From: Ruminococcus sp.
Lineage (GTDB): Bacteria; Bacillota; Clostridia; Oscillospirales; Ruminococcaceae
DNA length: 64,000 bases
Assembly (NCBI GenBank): GCA_015066815.1
Contig: SVNR01000005.1
Location: 1 to 64,000, forward strand
Reading direction: 5' to 3'
A program made the translations under genes and the position numbers. This document shows, piece after piece, positions 7,896-58,825 of this stretch. The notes beneath the pieces were generated by a model that worked only from the letters and a program-made list of their open reading frames with translations, searched no databases and was not told the DNA's origin. The first letter of the stretch is position 1. Each line of letters starts with the position of its first letter.

Positions 7896-9423
7896 ATATA
7901 CCCAACTCCTTCAAAAACTCATCCATTTTCGCCTGTACCTCTGCAATTTCCTTTTCTGTAACCGCAATATCAGCTGTAACAGCCTCTATATCTATAGGTG
8001 CTTCCTCCTCAAAAGTATCAACATATCGTGGAATATTAAGGTTATAGTCGTTTTCCTTTATTTCTTCTTTTGAAGCAAGATAGCAGTATTTTTCAATATT
8101 TTCACGGACCTTATATGCTTCGACAATTCGGGAAATATCACATTCACGCAGCAAGTTCTGATTTTTTCCTTTTTCGTAGTTTCCATCACCGCTTGCATCA
8201 ATAAACAGCACGTCACTTCTGCCTCTGTTCTTCTTGAAAACAAGTACGCAAGCAGGGATTCCCGTACCATAGAATAAGTTAGCAGGAAGACCTATCACAG
8301 CATCAAGAAGATTAAACTCAATTATCTGTTTACGTATCTTACCCTCGCTTGCACCTCTGAAAAGAACACCATGAGGAAGTACAACTGCCATACGTCCGCC
8401 ACTCTCATCAAGACAGTGGAGCATATGCAGAACAAAAGCATAGTCACCCTTTGATGAAGGTGGAACTCCCCATGTAAAACGGTTATATTTATCAAGAGAA
8501 GCTGACATCTTTTCTTTTTTCTTGTTTTCATCAGTAATAGCCGACAAGAAACCACTGTCCCATTTATCAAGTGAGAAAGGCGGATTTGCTACGATACACT
8601 GAAACTTCATAAGCTTATCATCCTTGATATTCTGCGGATTTGCAAGAGTATCACCCTGCCATATAACAGCGTCATCAACGCCATGCAGAAACATGTTCAT
8701 TTTACAAAGTGCCCAGGTCTGATTATTGACTTCCTGACCGTAAACTGCCACCTTATGAGATGATATCTTGTTATAAGCTTTAAGCAGTAAACCTCCGCTT
8801 CCGCAGGTGGGATCATATATGCGTTCATTTTCCTCAGGTGCTACCAGTTCCGCTACAAGCTTTGATACCTGACTTGGTGTGAAAAATTCTCCACCTTTCT
8901 TGCCTGCGTCCGAAGCAAAGTTAGCAATCATATATTCATAAGCATCACCGATAATATCCGCACTGTCAAGCTGAGACGGACTAAGATCAAGATTATAAAA
9001 GTCCTCAAGCAGATTGCGGAGTATAGCGTTTTTATCTTTTGTTTCACCGAAGTCTACTGTAGAATTAAAGTCAATTGCACGGAAAACATTCCTGAGTTTT
9101 TCGCTGTTGTTATTTTCGATTTCAGCAAGTGCGATATTTATCTTCTGTCCGATCTCATTATCTGTACGGCTCTTATACAGATAATCAAAAGTTGATGTTT
9201 CAGTAAGAGTGAAACGTTCGTTGCGCATAGCACGTTCAACACGTCTTTCATCACCTTTGTATTCGGTAATATACTTTGCTTTTGTTTCGTTATAAACATC
9301 ATTAAGATATTTTACAAAGAGCATAGCCAGAATATAATCCTTATAACGGGAACTGTCTATCTTATTTCTGAAACTGTCACAAGCGTTCCAGAGCACCTTT
9401 TCGATATCATTTTTTGTAGTCAT
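7888..9423 (-). CDS. hsdM: Type I restriction-modification methyltransferase subunit
   Basis: A 511-aa N6-adenine methyltransferase. The N-terminal helical HsdM domain (about 1-140) starts MTTKNDIEKVLWNACDSFRN. The SAM site is DPTCGSGGLLLKAY (about 205) and the catalytic NPPF motif is in VANPPFSLDKWDSGF (about 275). It also has RMAVVLPHGVLFRG and GLPANLFYGTGIPACVLVFK, typical of the family. The C-terminal acidic coiled-coil is where HsdS packs. GAGGTAA precedes ATG 9423. It lies 11 nt after the half-size hsdS and overlaps the dinD-like gene, in the middle of the seven-gene operon. Confidence 0.97.
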   Translation of the reverse strand: MTTKNDIEKVLWNACDSFRNKIDSSRYKDYILAMLFVKYLNDVYNETKAKYITEYKGDERRVERAMRNERFTLTETSTFDYLYKSRTDNEIGQKINIALAEIENNNSEKLRNVFRAIDFNSTVDFGETKDKNAILRNLLEDFYNLDLSPSQLDSADIIGDAYEYMIANFASDAGKKGGEFFTPSQVSKLVAELVAPEENERIYDPTCGSGGLLLKAYNKISSHKVAVYGQEVNNQTWALCKMNMFLHGVDDAVIWQGDTLANPQNIKDDKLMKFQCIVANPPFSLDKWDSGFLSAITDENKKKEKMSASLDKYNRFTWGVPPSSKGDYAFVLHMLHCLDESGGRMAVVLPHGVLFRGASEGKIRKQIIEFNLLDAVIGLPANLFYGTGIPACVLVFKKNRGRSDVLFIDASGDGNYEKGKNQNLLRECDISRIVEAYKVRENIEKYCYLASKEEIKENDYNLNIPRYVDTFEEEAPIDIEAVTADIAVTEKEIAEVQAKMDEFLKELGIYE

Positions 9424-10244: not shown

Positions 10245-13145
10245 ATGATTCACATTAAAAAAATCGCTTCTGCTCTTATCAGCACAGCTCTTATGCTTCA
10301 GTGTGCAGCTTCATTTCCGGTATCGGCTGTCGGAGAAAACGGAAATACAGTTACACATATAACTGCAGACTCTTACGGACAGATAGTCAGCGGAGCATTC
10401 TACAGAATCTCGCCGTGCAACAGTGAAAAGTATATAACGGCGGCTTCAGACAATACAGTGTGCCAATGGGAAGCGATTGCAGACAACACACAAAAATGGC
10501 AGATAATCAGCACGGGGAACGGATACTGCAAAATATTATCCGCTTCTTCTCCGTCACTTGCTGTAACTGTTGAAAATCAGGACAGCACAAACGGAAACAG
10601 GATGATACTTACCGAATACAGCGGGAAGCCTTCTCAGCATTTCCGGCTTAACCGTACAGGCAGCTGCTACTATATAACTGCCGAATGCTCAGGCAATGCC
10701 GCACTTGACGTATACGGACAAAGCAGTGAAAACGGCGCAGTTATCGACCAGTGGGACTACTGGGGCGGACAGAATCAAAAATTCTACATAATACCTGACG
10801 GCAGTGAAGGCGTTGTTTCGTTCGGGGATATGAACGGAGACGGAAAAACAAATATCATAGACAGAATTCTTCTTGAAAGCGGCTGTCAAAACGGATTTGA
10901 CGATATTTCTGCCTCTATAGCAGATCTTAATAACGACGAAGAAAACGATTTCAAGGATATAACTGCCATGAACGAATATTTTTTCGGAATAACAGGGGCA
11001 GTAAACAGTACGTTTGAAACAAAAAAAGATCAGACTGCGTATCTGTTTGCATATTTTCTCGGAAACGATCCGTCACAGGAAAGACTGTCATATGCTGTAA
11101 GTACCGACGGATATAACTTCAAAGCACTCAATAACGGAAACGCTGTATGGAAATCCGATGTAGGCACAGGCTGTATAAGAGACCCTTACATCTTCAAGGG
11201 AGAAGACGGCTTTTACTATCTGCTTGCAACCGATATGAAATCCTCTCTCGGCTGGAGCAGCAACAGAAATATTATAAGCGCAAAATCAACCGATCTTATA
11301 AACTGGACAGATGTCACTCTTATCGAAATATCCGGCAAATACCCCTCCATGATGGGTGCAGACAGAGCATGGGCTCCTCAGGCAATATACGATCCTGAAA
11401 AAAATTCGTACATGATCTACTGGGCAAATCGTTCTTCCGAAACAGGAAGCAGAACAATAATGTACTATGCATACAGCAGTGATATGAAAACCCTGGATAC
11501 CCAGCCTTCTCTTCTTTTTGCCCCGGCAAACGGAGACTGTGCAATAGATTCGGATATAATTTTCCATAACGGAAAATATTATATGTATTATAAAAACGAA
11601 ACAAACAAAAGAATATATCTCGGAACCTCCGAGCATGCAAGCGGTCCGTATACCGAGGTAAAACAGATATCCGAAGGAAACCTCGGCGTTGAAGGTCCGA
11701 ACATATACAACATTGTCGGAACAGACAGCTGGCTCCTTATGTCTGACGCATACGGAAACGGCTACTATGTGATGCAGAAAACAGATGACCTTGAAAACTT
11801 CACTTCAGTAAGCAGAAACGACTACAGCTTTGACTTTACGCCAAGACACGGTTATGTTATACCTATAACAAACGAACAGTACACAGAGCTTGTAAAAGCA
11901 TTTCCTTCATCATCAGTAACACCGCACAGCATAGAAACAGAAACAGCAATGATCACAGCAGACATCGGTGAAACAGTATCTCTTCCTGAAGAGGTAACAG
12001 TAAAATACTCCGACGGAAAAGAAATCGGATATCCTGTAGAATGGAACCATGATGAGCTTTCAAAGATAAATAAAAATAAAAAAGGAATATATACTGTTTC
12101 AGGAAATGTACAATACAAAAACTATAACGACCCGTTCATAGAGGAACGTGCAGACCCTTATATAGTTGACGGGGAAGACGGGTATTATTATTTTACAGCC
12201 TCATATCCTGCCTTTCAAAATGCCGATAACGGATATGACCGTATAATACTCAGAAGAAGCAGTACTGTCGAAGGGCTTGCAAAGGCAGAAGAAAAAACGA
12301 TATGGAAAGCACATAGCAGCGGAATACTTGCCAAGCACATATGGGCTCCCGAAATGCACAGGATAAACAACGTATGGTATATGTTCTTTGCGGCAGGAAG
12401 CAGCAGTAATGTATGGGCAATAAGGCCATATGTCCTGAAGTGTGACGGAGACCCATACACAGGCAACTGGACAGAATGCGGTCAGATGCAGGCGTCATAC
12501 GGAGATACTGAATCTTTTGCAAACTTTTCTCTTGATATGACTTACTTTGAGCACAACGGAAAGCACTATGTGATATGGGCAGAAATAAAAGGGGATTCGT
12601 CTCTTTTTATGGCTCAGATAAATCCTGATGAACCATGGAAGCTTATATCTAAGCCTGTTTTGCTGACTAAACCCGAATACAGCTGGGAAAAAGTAAATAA
12701 CAGAGTAAACGAAGGAGCGGCTGTACTGAAAACAGATTCAAAGATATATGTCTTTTTCTCTGCATCAGGAACGGGCTCAGAATACTGCGTAGGAAGACTT
12801 GAAGCAGATACCGGTTCAGAGCTTATGAATGCTTCAAGCTGGAAAAAAATCACTTCACCGGTACTTCAGACTTCAGATCTTGACGGACCAACAGGACCCG
12901 GACACAACAGCTTTGTTACGGATGAAAACAATAACCTTCTTCTTGTTTACCATGCCCGTCCGTCTTCTCACGATTCAGAACAATGCGGCTCATACTGTAA
13001 AGATCCGCTCTATGATCCATGCCGTCATACACGAATAAAAAAAGTTTTCTTTGATAAAAACGGTGTGCCTGTTATAAACATGAGCACACAGAAAGAGCTT
13101 GCCTCAGCACACCGGACTGTTACAGCAATTATAAAAATAGGTTAA
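10245..13145 (+). CDS. Secreted cellulosomal enzyme: ricin/CBM13 - dockerin - GH43 - Ig-like - GH43
   Basis: 966 aa with a signal peptide (about 1-28, cleavage near FPVSA-VG). A ricin-type CBM13-like domain (about 45-185) shows QKW, QHF and QKF repeats. A type I dockerin (about 194-248) has the calcium loop DMNGDGKTNIID and a weaker second loop DLNNDEENDFKD. The first GH43 five-bladed propeller (about 262-560) has RDPYIF, RAWAPQ and VEGPN. An Ig-like bacterial domain (about 585-632) follows. The second GH43 (about 637-960) has ADPYIV, IWAPEMH, NEGAAV and PGHNSF. GH43 enzymes are arabinofuranosidases, xylosidases or arabinanases acting on hemicellulose side chains. The dockerin would anchor the protein to a scaffoldin; its internal position is unusual. 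GGAGGAT precedes the start. Confidence 0.93.
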   Translation: MIHIKKIASALISTALMLQCAASFPVSAVGENGNTVTHITADSYGQIVSGAFYRISPCNSEKYITAASDNTVCQWEAIADNTQKWQIISTGNGYCKILSASSPSLAVTVENQDSTNGNRMILTEYSGKPSQHFRLNRTGSCYYITAECSGNAALDVYGQSSENGAVIDQWDYWGGQNQKFYIIPDGSEGVVSFGDMNGDGKTNIIDRILLESGCQNGFDDISASIADLNNDEENDFKDITAMNEYFFGITGAVNSTFETKKDQTAYLFAYFLGNDPSQERLSYAVSTDGYNFKALNNGNAVWKSDVGTGCIRDPYIFKGEDGFYYLLATDMKSSLGWSSNRNIISAKSTDLINWTDVTLIEISGKYPSMMGADRAWAPQAIYDPEKNSYMIYWANRSSETGSRTIMYYAYSSDMKTLDTQPSLLFAPANGDCAIDSDIIFHNGKYYMYYKNETNKRIYLGTSEHASGPYTEVKQISEGNLGVEGPNIYNIVGTDSWLLMSDAYGNGYYVMQKTDDLENFTSVSRNDYSFDFTPRHGYVIPITNEQYTELVKAFPSSSVTPHSIETETAMITADIGETVSLPEEVTVKYSDGKEIGYPVEWNHDELSKINKNKKGIYTVSGNVQYKNYNDPFIEERADPYIVDGEDGYYYFTASYPAFQNADNGYDRIILRRSSTVEGLAKAEEKTIWKAHSSGILAKHIWAPEMHRINNVWYMFFAAGSSSNVWAIRPYVLKCDGDPYTGNWTECGQMQASYGDTESFANFSLDMTYFEHNGKHYVIWAEIKGDSSLFMAQINPDEPWKLISKPVLLTKPEYSWEKVNNRVNEGAAVLKTDSKIYVFFSASGTGSEYCVGRLEADTGSELMNASSWKKITSPVLQTSDLDGPTGPGHNSFVTDENNNLLLVYHARPSSHDSEQCGSYCKDPLYDPCRHTRIKKVFFDKNGVPVINMSTQKELASAHRTVTAIIKIG

Positions 13146-54178: not shown

Positions 54179-54532
54179 ATGTCAGTCAGACGAGGAGAGA
54201 TATATTATGCGGATCTTAGTCCTGTGGTAGGTTCAGAGCAGGGCGGAATAAGACCGGTACTTATAGTTCAGAACGATATAGGAAACAAGCACAGTCCTAC
54301 TGTTATTGCAGCTGCAATAACAAGTCAGAGGGATAAAGCAAAGCTTCCTACTCATATTGAGCTCAATGCTCTGCAGTATGGTCTTGCCAAGGACAGTGTT
54401 GTGCTTTTAGAGCAGATACGCACTATCGATAAAAGAAGACTCAAGGAGCGTATGGGAGAGCTCGATAATACATCTATGCATAAGGTGAACGACGCATTAT
54501 CAATAAGCTTCGGGCTTAATAACATAGTGTAA
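54179..54532 (+). CDS. mazF: MazF/EndoA-type mRNA interferase toxin
   Basis: 117 aa: [20 protein letters not shown], then [40 protein letters not shown] is the EndoA/NdoA signature, and [20 protein letters not shown] follows. It is a single-strand RNA endonuclease of the PemK/MazF family (B. subtilis EndoA cuts UACAU). All core segments are present, so it should be active. No antitoxin reading frame is found in the 230 nt upstream or directly downstream, so its MazE/EndoAI partner must be elsewhere or lost. Confidence 0.95.
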
Positions 54533-55085: not shown

Positions 55086-56069
55086 TTAGCCTATTGATGT
55101 TATCTTGTTTGAAATATACTGCTTAAGCCTTGCAAGATCAGAGATGTTTACAGTGTCGTTGCCGTCTATGTCTGCAAGTGATGACTGTTCTGAAGTAAGC
55201 TCTGTATCTCCGAGGATAGCGAGGCTGAGAAATGACAGATCGTTCAGATCGATGATGTTGTCGTTGTTGAGATCTCCGATAGTTTTATCTGTTGTCTTAG
55301 GCGTATATACGATACTTGACAGCTCTCTGGATTCGGAGACATCTGTTGGACAAATAAATTCGACATGTTCTGACCGGAAAAATTCCAGAAGCTCATTGAA
55401 GTATTCTTCATTTTTCAGATTTGACACAGGATTTTCTTTCGGATATCCGACATAGCTGTAAGTTTTTCCATGTATTACTTTTTCTTCGGGTGATATTTCA
55501 AGATTGAACTTTTCAAACTTTTTTGTCAGTTCCTCGGCAGACAGCTCATCTGTGAAATATGCCCTCATAAAAGTTGCCTGTTTGGTAATCGCAACAGTTG
55601 AACATTCGGTTATGGATTTAATATTATCATATCCGAATAAAATATCGATAACGTCCTGCTTATCAGTATCTGTATAGGATGAGATACTTATCTGATAAGT
55701 GTTTTCCATGTCTGATATTTTATACAGTTTGTTGTTTTTATTTTTGAGCTTCTCATTGATTTCTTCAATAGGAAGTTCTGTGTCGTCACTGACCGCAACA
55801 ACCAGTCTGCGATTATATTCCTCATAATAGTGTGCACCTGTTTTATCTAAGGTCGTAAAGCCTTTGCGATATTCATCTTCGTATTTCGTAGCAACAGTCT
55901 GACCATCGTTTTCCATAAGCTCTTCAATTGATTGTGAGGTAACGAGAATAGAGTAAATATGATTATCTTGTTTAACGGAAGTTTCAGCTGAAACCTTCGT
56001 CATGGGCAATGTTGCTATAAGTATGGATGGTATTATTATTCGTGATAAAATCTTCTGAGTTTTTTTCAT
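55086..56069 (-). CDS. Secreted dockerin protein, novel N-terminal repeat domain (paralogue 1)
   Basis: 327 aa. The signal peptide is about 1-29 (RIIIPSILIATLPMTKVSAE). Two related units follow: one with LPIEEINEKLKNKNNKLYKI and YQISISSYTDTDKQDVIDIL, and one with LSAEELTKKFEKFNLEISPE. Then come NEEYFNELLEFFRSEHVEFI and ELSSIVYTPK. The C-terminal type I dockerin (about 265-325) has two loops, GDLNNDNIIDLNDLSFLS and ADIDGNDTVNISDLARLK. The middle region matches nothing I recognise; its EIN...Y.IS...A..L..YD pattern is vaguely like small protease-propeptide or inhibitor folds. The adjacent gene (56251-57264) is a paralogue. GAGGTGAT precedes the start. Confidence 0.9.
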   Translation of the reverse strand: MKKTQKILSRIIIPSILIATLPMTKVSAETSVKQDNHIYSILVTSQSIEELMENDGQTVATKYEDEYRKGFTTLDKTGAHYYEEYNRRLVVAVSDDTELPIEEINEKLKNKNNKLYKISDMENTYQISISSYTDTDKQDVIDILFGYDNIKSITECSTVAITKQATFMRAYFTDELSAEELTKKFEKFNLEISPEEKVIHGKTYSYVGYPKENPVSNLKNEEYFNELLEFFRSEHVEFICPTDVSESRELSSIVYTPKTTDKTIGDLNNDNIIDLNDLSFLSLAILGDTELTSEQSSLADIDGNDTVNISDLARLKQYISNKITSIG

Positions 56070-56141
56070 AAAATCACCTCATTGAGTTAAACGTGGATCA
56101 GATAAATAAAAACGTAACGTGAATTATATTTAAAGTGAAAC

Positions 56142-56177
56142 TATAGTAAACGACAAATATATTTGCCGCTTACTATA
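56142..56177. repeat. Intergenic palindrome family copy 7
   Basis: TATAGTAAACGACAAATA pairs with TATTTGCCGCTTACTATA (two mismatches), between the two dockerin protein genes. Confidence 0.88.
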
Positions 56178-56250
56178 AGTACATTAAATCACGTCAGACA
56201 GTTTACTTATCTGTTTTATTTTTTTACTTTCCGGTCAGTTTTTCAAGTCA

Positions 56251-57264
56251 TTAATTTATTGTATTATCATTTCTGGATATATATCTTTTAAGCTTTGCAA
56301 GGTCTGAGAGATTGATTTTTCCGTCAGCATTTATGTTAGCTGAGATCTTCTGAATGTCGTTGAATTCGTTATCGCCGATAAGATAGAGAGAAAGCAGTGA
56401 GAGGTCGGACATATCGATACAGAGGTCACGGTTTATATCTCCGTATAACAATTCGTGGGATTCTTTCTCATAGACTATGGTTGCGAAGGATTCGGAATCA
56501 GGGATTCTTTCAGCTGCCCAGAATTCAACAAACACATCATCATTTTTCAGAAGCTTCTCAAGCTTTTCGCAGTATTCCGGATCAGACATGTTTGTTATCG
56601 TGTTTTTTCCCCAATCTGCTAAATATATGTGCTTTCCATCATCTTCTCCGTATGATGATGGACGCAGATTTAAATCAAAGTAATCGAAATTATACTGTTC
56701 TTCTACTTCTTCTATGGAGAGAGGACTTTTTATTTCGACATGTCTGATTCCACAAAGAGTATTAGTCCATATCTCCACGGTTTCTGTGATAAGTGATGTC
56801 TGATCATATGAGGACAATACTTCAAGGGCGTTCTTGCGAGCATCCAAAGAATCTACACTGACAGTATACACATTTCTGTCACCGTTCTTTTCTGCCTTTT
56901 TAAGAGTATATGGTGCTATCTTTTCATTGATCTCATCTACGGGCAGTTCTTTTCCCGGAATTGTTTCAACAGTAAAAATGTATCTTTTTTCGGCATATGA
57001 GTTTATGTAAGGATTATCGGTTTCGGAATCTACACCAATTACGAACGTTGTATATCCTACGATACTCGACCAGTAATCTTTAAAAACGATTTTTGGTCCG
57101 GGGATTCTGTCTATGAGTTCTTCAACCTTTACATTCCAGTTTATGTCTATGTAGTACGGTGGATTGTATTCAGCCGCCGATACAGCAAACGAACCGGTGC
57201 TTGCGGCAAGTATGAAGAGTGCGGATAATGCTGCGGTTAGTTTTTTCATTGTTTTAGTTTTCAT
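56251..57264 (-). CDS. Secreted dockerin protein, novel N-terminal repeat domain (paralogue 2)
   Basis: 337 aa. The signal peptide is about 1-31 (LTAALSALFILAASTGSFAV, cleavage near VSA-AEY). The same unknown two-unit region as its neighbour follows. It has LPVDEINEKIAPYTLKKAEK, YTVSVDSLDARKNALEVLSS and LSIEEVEEQYNFDYFDLNLR, then FATIVYEKES. The C-terminal dockerin has GDINRDLCIDMSDLSLLS and ANINADGKINLSDLAKLK. The start is set by GGAGGGATCATT before ATG 57264; the upstream in-frame ATG at 57309 lacks a ribosome site. Identity with paralogue 1 is low outside the dockerin, but the order of motifs is the same, so the duplication is old. Cellulosome or cell-surface localisation is inferred from the dockerin. 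Confidence 0.9.
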   Translation of the reverse strand: MKTKTMKKLTAALSALFILAASTGSFAVSAAEYNPPYYIDINWNVKVEELIDRIPGPKIVFKDYWSSIVGYTTFVIGVDSETDNPYINSYAEKRYIFTVETIPGKELPVDEINEKIAPYTLKKAEKNGDRNVYTVSVDSLDARKNALEVLSSYDQTSLITETVEIWTNTLCGIRHVEIKSPLSIEEVEEQYNFDYFDLNLRPSSYGEDDGKHIYLADWGKNTITNMSDPEYCEKLEKLLKNDDVFVEFWAAERIPDSESFATIVYEKESHELLYGDINRDLCIDMSDLSLLSLYLIGDNEFNDIQKISANINADGKINLSDLAKLKRYISRNDNTIN

Positions 57265-57462
57265 AATGATCCCTCCGATATGTGTGTATTTAAAAATCAG
57301 TACTGCCAATGAGATTCGTTTTTTAAGCCTTCATATATATAATATTTTAAGGCATGAAAATGTTTGAGTTTGATTGCAAGTTTGGAGAAACTCACAATTT
57401 TAGCTCGAAAAATTGTTATATATATCCATCTGATACACCCCCCTATCCATAATTATTATCTG

Positions 57463-57497
57463 AAACAGGAAAAGCGTTCCGCTTTTTGTCCCTGTTC
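57463..57497 (-). terminator. Hairpin in the 57265-57630 spacer, possible end of the sigma/DUF4367 operon
   Basis: AACAGG..AAAGCG pairs with CGCTTT..CCTGTT around a short loop, about 135 nt past the DUF4367 stop. The remainder of this spacer is AT-rich with weaker inverted repeats (AAGCCTT/AAGGC near 57327-57354) and no gene. Confidence 0.4.
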
Positions 57498-57630
57498 ATA
57501 AATAATAACAATGCAGGTGTTCAAATCCTGACATAAAAATCTGATTTAAAAGTGAGTTCTACTTTTTTTATAAATTTAGTAAAGTTAAATAGTGAGTTTT
57601 TAACAAAAATCAGTTAAATAAATGTTAATA

Positions 57631-58305
57631 TTATTCTGACTTCTTTATGGAGTTTGCTACATCCAATAATAGTTTTTTTCCGGAGTTTGTTCTTAGTGTA
57701 AATATATAATCACCATTCTCCCATATTAAGTGATAAAAATTATGATTATCTACATAATGCATTGCTTCAAATCCGTTAATAATTATAGTTTCAATATCTG
57801 CATCTTCTGTATTCTTATTGATAGTAATATCTTTTGTGTATTGACAAAAATAAATGCTTACATCTCCCTTTGCATACTCAATCGTATTTCCGGTTGCATC
57901 CAATATTTCATAAACCACTTCATAATCACTCAGATCATAAGTAATCTCATATACCTCCTCAATGGTCTCCGGAAACCCTTCTTGTTCCGGTGAACGTATA
58001 ATCGAAAACTTTTCAAGTATATACACATAAAAATTCGCAAGAGTCTCACCGATAGCATCTACCTTAGTCACAGTTATAGACGACAGAACGATCACTACGC
58101 CTAATATCCATGCAGTTCTCTTCACCCCTGTGTTTATCAGCGGATAATAAGATTTTCTGCGGCGGCTGATAAGCTTTTTCATTTTTCGTTCAAACTTTTT
58201 AGAAAAGATATGCTCTTCAGGAGCTTCCGGCAGGGCGTCTGTGTATTCGGGAAGTAGTGCTTCTGCCACAGCTTTTTTGAAAATATTTTCAGATGTACTG
58301 CTCAT
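57631..58305 (-). CDS. DUF4367 membrane protein, probable anti-sigma partner
   Basis: 224 aa. A cytoplasmic N-terminus of about 67 residues is rich in Arg and Lys near its end (KFERKMKKLISRRRKS). One membrane helix follows at about 68-86 (TAWILGVVIVLSSITVTKV). The extracellular C-terminal domain has VYEITYDLSDYEVVYEILDA, and DIETIIINGFEAMHYVDNHN then FYHLIWENGDYIFTLRTN is the DUF4367 pattern. The gene overlaps the ECF sigma gene by 17 nt, the usual sigma/anti-sigma coupling. It probably holds the sigma factor at the membrane until a signal arrives; that is an inference from arrangement. Confidence 0.85.
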   Translation of the reverse strand: MSSTSENIFKKAVAEALLPEYTDALPEAPEEHIFSKKFERKMKKLISRRRKSYYPLINTGVKRTAWILGVVIVLSSITVTKVDAIGETLANFYVYILEKFSIIRSPEQEGFPETIEEVYEITYDLSDYEVVYEILDATGNTIEYAKGDVSIYFCQYTKDITINKNTEDADIETIIINGFEAMHYVDNHNFYHLIWENGDYIFTLRTNSGKKLLLDVANSIKKSE

Positions 58306-58825
58306 CCTTATCCAGCTCCTCTCTGAGCATTTTTTTACCGCGTTCTATCCTTTTCCGTACTGCATCAGTGGAAATATGGAGTGAATCTGCGATTTCTTTG
58401 CATTCGAATCCTAAAACATAATACAGAACAAAAACGTCCTTGTACGTCTGCGGAAGACCTGAGATAATATTTATGAGTCTCTGATATTCGTATTTTTCAA
58501 GAATATCATCGTCTATAGATATGTTCTCATTAAGCGCAGTACTGCGCTCGGCAGTTTTTTTATTTTTATTGTAAATGTTTATAGAATGGTTCCTGATAAT
58601 AATAACAAAGTAAGCCTCTGTTTCGTGACATGAAAACGAAGAAATTTTTTTAAAATTATTTGCAGCAGCGAGAAAAGCCGTCTGGACGGCATCCTCGGCG
58701 TCATGTGAATTGTTCAGAATCCTGTACGCAGCCGCATACATACGCTGTCTGTATTTATAATACAGCTGTTCAAACCTTTGCTTATCGTTCTCATCATCAA
58801 TAAGCGAAAGACATATTCCTAACAT
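58289..58825 (-). CDS. ECF-type RNA polymerase sigma factor
   Basis: 178 aa. Region 2 is RFEQLYYKYRQRMYAAAYRI then DAEDAVQTAFLAAANNF. Region 4 is LPQTYKDVFVLYYVLGFECK with the helix-turn-helix KEIADSLHISTDAVRKRIER. AAGGTGGTG precedes ATG 58823-58825. It is co-transcribed with the DUF4367 gene. Possible targets are the two dockerin genes beyond it, but I could not identify a shared -35/-10 pair distinct from sigma-A, so the regulon is open. Extracytoplasmic control of cellulosomal genes by sigma/anti-sigma pairs is known from Clostridium thermocellum (SigI/RsgI), a different family. Confidence 0.92.
   Translation of the reverse strand: MLGICLSLIDDENDKQRFEQLYYKYRQRMYAAAYRILNNSHDAEDAVQTAFLAAANNFKKISSFSCHETEAYFVIIIRNHSINIYNKNKKTAERSTALNENISIDDDILEKYEYQRLINIISGLPQTYKDVFVLYYVLGFECKEIADSLHISTDAVRKRIERGKKMLREELDKDEQYI

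Follow-up and report, generated by a model that had tools for sequence, protein, structure and literature searches.

In Ruminococcus flavefaciens FD-1, 118 dockerin proteins carry regions of unknown function, and most dockerin proteins of this strain contain such parts (PMC2930009). Serpins tethered by dockerins have been suggested to shield the cellulosome from proteolysis (PMC5301203). That an anti-sigma sensor can control cellulosomal genes is known from RsgI proteins (PMC6056542, PMC11557425), and a 2024 survey found suites of RsgI in cellulosomes of the Acetivibrio type alone (PMC11557425). In the open-licence literature, we found no report of extracytoplasmic function (ECF) sigma/anti-sigma cassettes controlling dockerin proteins in Ruminococcus. 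Here we describe such a candidate cassette in a 64,000-nucleotide stretch of Ruminococcus sp. contig SVNR01000005.1, called the window below. Positions 55086-58825 hold four open reading frames (ORFs), all on the minus strand, encoding an ECF sigma factor, a DUF4367 protein and the secreted proteins protB and protA. We tentatively read the locus, at a little short of even confidence, as a signal-responsive ECF cassette producing cellulosome-tethered, most likely protease-binding or inhibitory proteins.

A preliminary description of the window, made from its letters alone, had noted two neighbouring secreted paralogues with a common region and C-terminal dockerins, directly downstream of a sigma/anti-sigma pair, and all of these points held. 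protA and protB are 30% identical over 227 residues (E 9e-24), a similarity reaching beyond the dockerin. Each carries a signal peptide, which is MKTKTMKKLTAALSALFILAAS in protB, and a type I dockerin with two Ca-binding repeats scoring well over the cut-off of 22.9 bits, placing both among the dockerin-bearing cellulosomal proteins; the host genome of 2.6 Mb contains 106 dockerin matches, some sharing one ORF. The ATG at 57264 is the likely start of protB, rather than the TTG at 57309. The sigma gene, with orthologues at loci L115, L116, L117 and L118, overlaps the DUF4367 gene by 17 bp. The DUF4367 protein has a single hydrophobic segment (residues 67-85), and its orthologues of 53% identity adjoin the orthologous sigma genes in the congeneric genomes G008 and G010. 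A factor with sigma2 and sigma4 regions thus stands beside a putative membrane anti-sigma factor, as expected of an ECF unit.

An alignment of the sequences that follow orthologous DUF4367 genes yielded the motif TGTCAGGA-N15-TGTTAT, which we infer to be the promoter of this sigma factor. Eight exact copies are present in 11 congeneric genomes (~36 Mb) versus 0.46 expected, and all eight lie at orthologous sigma/DUF4367 loci (one in the window, three each in G008 and G010, one in G005); because the motif was derived from those very loci, the count tests its specificity, not its discovery. Four copies precede the first downstream operon, with target genes in the window, G008, G010 and G005. Two precede sigma genes, as expected under autoregulation, in G008 and G010 only, and two are inside sigma coding sequences. 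The two intragenic copies and a one-mismatch copy at 58602-58630 fall within conserved coding sequence and were taken as coincidence. The genes downstream of the motif differ between the loci, namely protB, a 138-residue secreted protein ahead of a dockerin S1 protease, a 319-residue dockerin protein and a 148-residue secreted protein, so that conservation of the targets does not explain conservation of the motif.

The motif before protB is highly specific, and control of this gene by the sigma factor is thereby well supported. For protA, sigma control, as previously suggested for the pair, is no more than a possibility: this gene lacks the motif, is preceded by a hairpin and has its own sigma-70-like hexamers. 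These features of protA, as well as the sigma-70-like promoter (TTGACA-17-TATCGT) found instead of the motif at the window sigma gene, are what one would expect if the pair were expressed independently of its neighbour and the linkage were incidental. We consider this very unlikely, since the exact motif stands before protB and before unrelated downstream genes at orthologous loci, and exactly nowhere else in the 36 Mb.

The leader from the motif to the first start codon is also conserved among the orthologous loci. In the window, it aligns with the intact first genes at L115 and L117 and ends in a nine-codon ORF, and in G010 (L116) it runs into a relic with a C1A-protease dockerin tail, 88% identical to L074. 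Because the conserved leader ends in these two ways, a first gene has probably been deleted: the nine-codon ORF would be the relic of a lost first operon gene, which in G010 was probably a protease.

The region shared by protA and protB consists of a half-unit and two alpha/beta units and contains the motifs quoted previously (EINEK, YxIS/VS, YDxxxSITE and IVY). With Pfam and NCBIfam, nothing except the dockerin scored above cut-off in the two proteins, and the domains of 17 family members passed none of the models, i.e., the domain family is nameless in both libraries. A PDB profile search with the domain gave nothing convincing (best E 0.013). Structure prediction, proposed in the preliminary description as a check, was performed using AlphaFold with 17 homologues and yielded a model with a mean predicted local distance difference test (pLDDT) score of 77, and near 90 in the core. 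In this model, a helix-strand-strand element precedes two beta-alpha-beta-beta-alpha-beta(-beta) units, which together form a predicted tandem ferredoxin-like fold. Foldseek retrieved generic ferredoxin-like domains only (ACT, NikR, PII-like, ribosomal S6), and their E-values were weak. The two units noted earlier were thus recovered in the predicted fold and not as a sequence repeat: unit 1 and unit 2 gave no significant match when their profiles were compared, so "two-unit" denotes structural likeness rather than a detectable repeat. No enzyme homologue stood out for the domain in the Pfam/NCBIfam, PDB profile or Foldseek searches. A match to a known enzyme family, which had been named beforehand as one outcome contradicting the preliminary description, was thus not found in sequence, profile or fold searches.

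Profile searches, likewise proposed beforehand, identified family members in 8 of the 11 genomes of the genus. Outside the genus, the 398 genomes searched in the taxonomic family yielded one convincing occurrence in another genus (G360); three more matches near E 1e-5 were excluded, as their coverage lay mostly at the signal-peptide end. On this distribution, the domain family is largely genus-restricted. A scan of genome contigs produced no confirmed relative with the window protein as query and one relative with the homologue alignment, on the rumen Ruminococcus metagenome-assembled genome contig RUG13497.

The gene neighbourhoods in relatives point to proteases. In G006, G009, G007 and G010, a family gene lies 16-25 bp downstream of, and co-directional with, a gene for a secreted S1 (trypsin/V8-like) protease, and at a second G006 locus two dockerin S1 proteases flank a family gene. 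With HtrA-like S1 genes left out on the basis of ORF length and score, 6 of the 14 remaining S1 genes of the genus adjoin a family gene, for which the chance probability is ~2e-14, or ~1e-9 once orthologues and tandem duplicates are collapsed. Most of the others precede different small secreted dockerin genes (L115, L121, L122, L123, L126). One family member is joined to a serpin via a dockerin (L069/L066 homologue, with the full serpin in L069), a G008 cluster includes a dockerin C1A protease, and the sigma-driven operon at the orthologous G008 locus includes a dockerin S1 protease. A second small domain, termed "mini", follows S1 proteases at L121 and L122; it takes the place of the family at one sigma locus, and in L064 it forms a fusion with the family domain. 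The protease-binding reading rests on the adjoining S1 proteases, the serpin fusion and the C1A protease within one cluster. This genome context favours protease inhibition as the putative role of protA and protB, one of the functions suggested previously; the adhesin role suggested alongside found no support.

As a separate observation, dockerin-bearing or secreted S1 proteases (one S8) at L121, L122, L123, L126 and L124 are followed by small secreted dockerin proteins with other unnamed domains, which are candidate partners or inhibitors. Serpins are expanded in G004, G009 and G006: a single genome has as many as 10 matches, and several matches lie inside dockerin ORFs.

The same adjacency could also be read as that of trans-acting propeptides or foldases of the neighbouring secreted proteases, i.e., chaperones that also inhibit. 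Alpha/beta folds occur in some prodomains, and the co-directional position directly after S1 protease genes would suit such a role. We regard it as improbable, however, given that many members have no protease partner, that the host genome has no non-HtrA S1 protease, and that a dockerin would hold the "foldase" outside the cell permanently.

Beyond the preliminary description, the family domain also occurs as an anti-sigma ectodomain. It has this position in three G007 anti-sigma proteins (L071:5135-6388, 8144-9277 and 11768-12859), in a fourth in L172, where a dockerin protein carrying a mini domain comes next after the anti-sigma gene, and in one in G003 (L101:3-1313). The genus has an expanded second group of ECF loci, "sigA" (~97 matches at E up to 1e-20), and in L064 and L066 family dockerin genes directly follow sigA-type sigma/anti-sigma genes. 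Sigma/anti-sigma/dockerin triads were found at 24 of 80 fetched loci, and at 20 of the 29 with the closest sigma paralogues. A mosaic locus pair, L157/L159 (G006:C2:2130100-2136000 versus G009:C93:7400-13000), has sigma genes of 98% identity and 96% DNA identity over 1.2 kb spanning the sigma gene and the anti-sigma N-terminus, whereas the anti-sigma ectodomains are only 25% identical. In the next gene, the signal peptide is 91% identical at the DNA level and the body 13%, the bodies being unrelated (the family domain in one genome, two mini domains in the other); a dockerin region further downstream is 87% identical. Among seven locus pairs with sigma identity of at least 90%, clear double replacement is seen only in L157/L159, the other six being conserved or partly diverged; a general law of sensor/effector co-exchange is therefore suggested and not established.

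The ectodomains could indicate that protA, protB and their dockerin relatives act not as inhibitors but as receptors or adhesins for a ligand or peptide, with the domain sensing an extracellular protein or peptide in the anti-sigma factor and capturing it in the dockerin protein, in an RsgI-like logic. Several anti-sigma proteins of G007 and G003 with the domain, the joint divergence of ectodomain and effector body at an otherwise 96%-identical locus and the ACT/NikR/PII-like folds, which frequently bind small ligands, would all be in line with this. We nevertheless consider it unlikely, for it leaves the tight S1/C1A linkage and the serpin fusion unexplained. More broadly, a large and modular repertoire of ECF sigma/anti-sigma/dockerin cassettes might equip ruminococcal cellulosomes; in these cassettes sensor and effector would change together, and some would sense and neutralise extracellular proteases, rebuilding RsgI-like logic with ECF factors and protein-binding domains; we consider this generalisation doubtful.

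Two side observations concern the sigA group. A simple dyad count for a promoter motif shared by the group and its targets gave A/T-rich noise only. At L186, L191, L194, L198, L199, L205, L207, L209 and L214, the anti-sigma position immediately after sigA-type ECF genes is occupied by ORFs of ~1060-1090 residues; should these encode anti-sigma factors, their ectodomains would be unusually large.

Under the protease-binding or inhibitory reading, the membrane DUF4367 protein would keep the ECF sigma factor inactive until an extracellular cue frees it. The freed sigma factor would transcribe protB from TGTCAGGA-N15-TGTTAT, and read-through might extend transcription to protA. Both proteins would be exported, and their dockerins would plug into the cellulosome or the cell surface, where the non-catalytic tandem ferredoxin-like domain would bind secreted proteases, of the S1 trypsin/V8-like kind in relatives, and most likely inhibit them. 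Cellulosome proteins might thereby be protected, or a partner protease restrained.

Several findings weigh against this reading. Apart from the missing motif at protA, the domain is not homologous in sequence to any family of inhibitors, its profile comparison with I9 propeptides was not significant, and I9 is absent from its top 50 fold matches. Ferredoxin-like folds have many functions. The host genome has only three S1 matches, all HtrA-like, and two C1A matches, and none of the five is near the locus, so that no local protease target is known in this genome; several members elsewhere (L068, L071) have no protease close by.

Table. Features of the ECF sigma/dockerin locus in the window, in the direction of transcription.
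Feature	Position	Strand	Evidence
ECF sigma factor, 178 residues	58289..58825	-	Sigma70_r2 and Sigma70_r4_2 above cut-off
Membrane anti-sigma candidate, DUF4367 ectodomain, 224 residues	57631..58305	-	PF14285, E 4.1e-10
ECF-type promoter motif 5' of protB	57505..57533	-	exact match
9-codon ORF with conserved leader and ribosome-binding site (GGGGGTGTATCAG-ATG)	57400..57429	-	leader alignment
protB, secreted, predicted tandem ferredoxin-like domain, C-terminal dockerin, 337 residues from ATG	56251..57264	-	
protB unit 1, predicted ferredoxin-like	56749..57015	-	pLDDT 92.9 folded alone
protB unit 2, second beta-alpha-beta-beta-alpha-beta unit	56455..56769	-	predicted structure
protB dockerin type I	56278..56445	-	43.0 bits
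17-pair near-perfect hairpin with weak T tail in the protB/protA gap, possible terminator or attenuator	56141..56178	-	
protA, secreted protB paralogue with dockerin, 327 residues	55086..56069	-	
protA unit 1	55572..55844	-	
protA unit 2	55290..55592	-	
protA dockerin type I	55113..55277	-	37.4 bits

The genes flanking the four-gene interval appear housekeeping-like, as judged by eye. An ORF at 54179-54532 resembles a PemK/MazF-type toxin by eye, and no obvious antitoxin was seen among ORFs of at least 100 residues.

For the regulation of the very large dockerin repertoires of rumen ruminococci, the locus offers a concrete regulator and a promoter motif that is specific enough for experiments, together with a functional hypothesis for one group of unknown dockerin proteins. 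The cassette resembles SigI/RsgI of C. thermocellum/Acetivibrio in its membrane anti-sigma factor with an extracellular sensor and its dockerin-protein gene targets, and in that sensor and product can share a module. It differs in that the sigma factor is of the ECF type, retaining the sigma4 region that SigI-type factors lack, the anti-sigma factor is of the DUF4367 or an unnamed type, and the module in common is a protein domain rather than a carbohydrate-binding module; the window anti-sigma protein matches DUF4367 only and not the RsgI N-terminal domain. Like the cellulosomal serpins (C. thermocellum PinA; R. flavefaciens Doc-Serpin, group 6b), protA and protB are dockerin-tethered and non-catalytic, and one family member is serpin-fused, but they are unrelated to serpins in sequence and predicted fold, and neither contains a serpin domain (PF00079). 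With Peptidase inhibitor I9/subtilisin propeptides, of which free-standing inhibitors exist (e.g., 1v5i_B), the predicted model shares the ferredoxin-like beta-alpha-beta-beta-alpha-beta fold class, one common to many other families. Membership in I9 (PF05922) was rejected, with no Pfam match and an hhalign probability of <1% with two I9 sequences, and the proteases near the family belong to S1/C1A, not S8. protA and protB belong to the same class of secreted UNK-dockerin proteins as those of R. flavefaciens FD-1, from which they differ in that their family is defined by profile, predicted structure and regulatory context.

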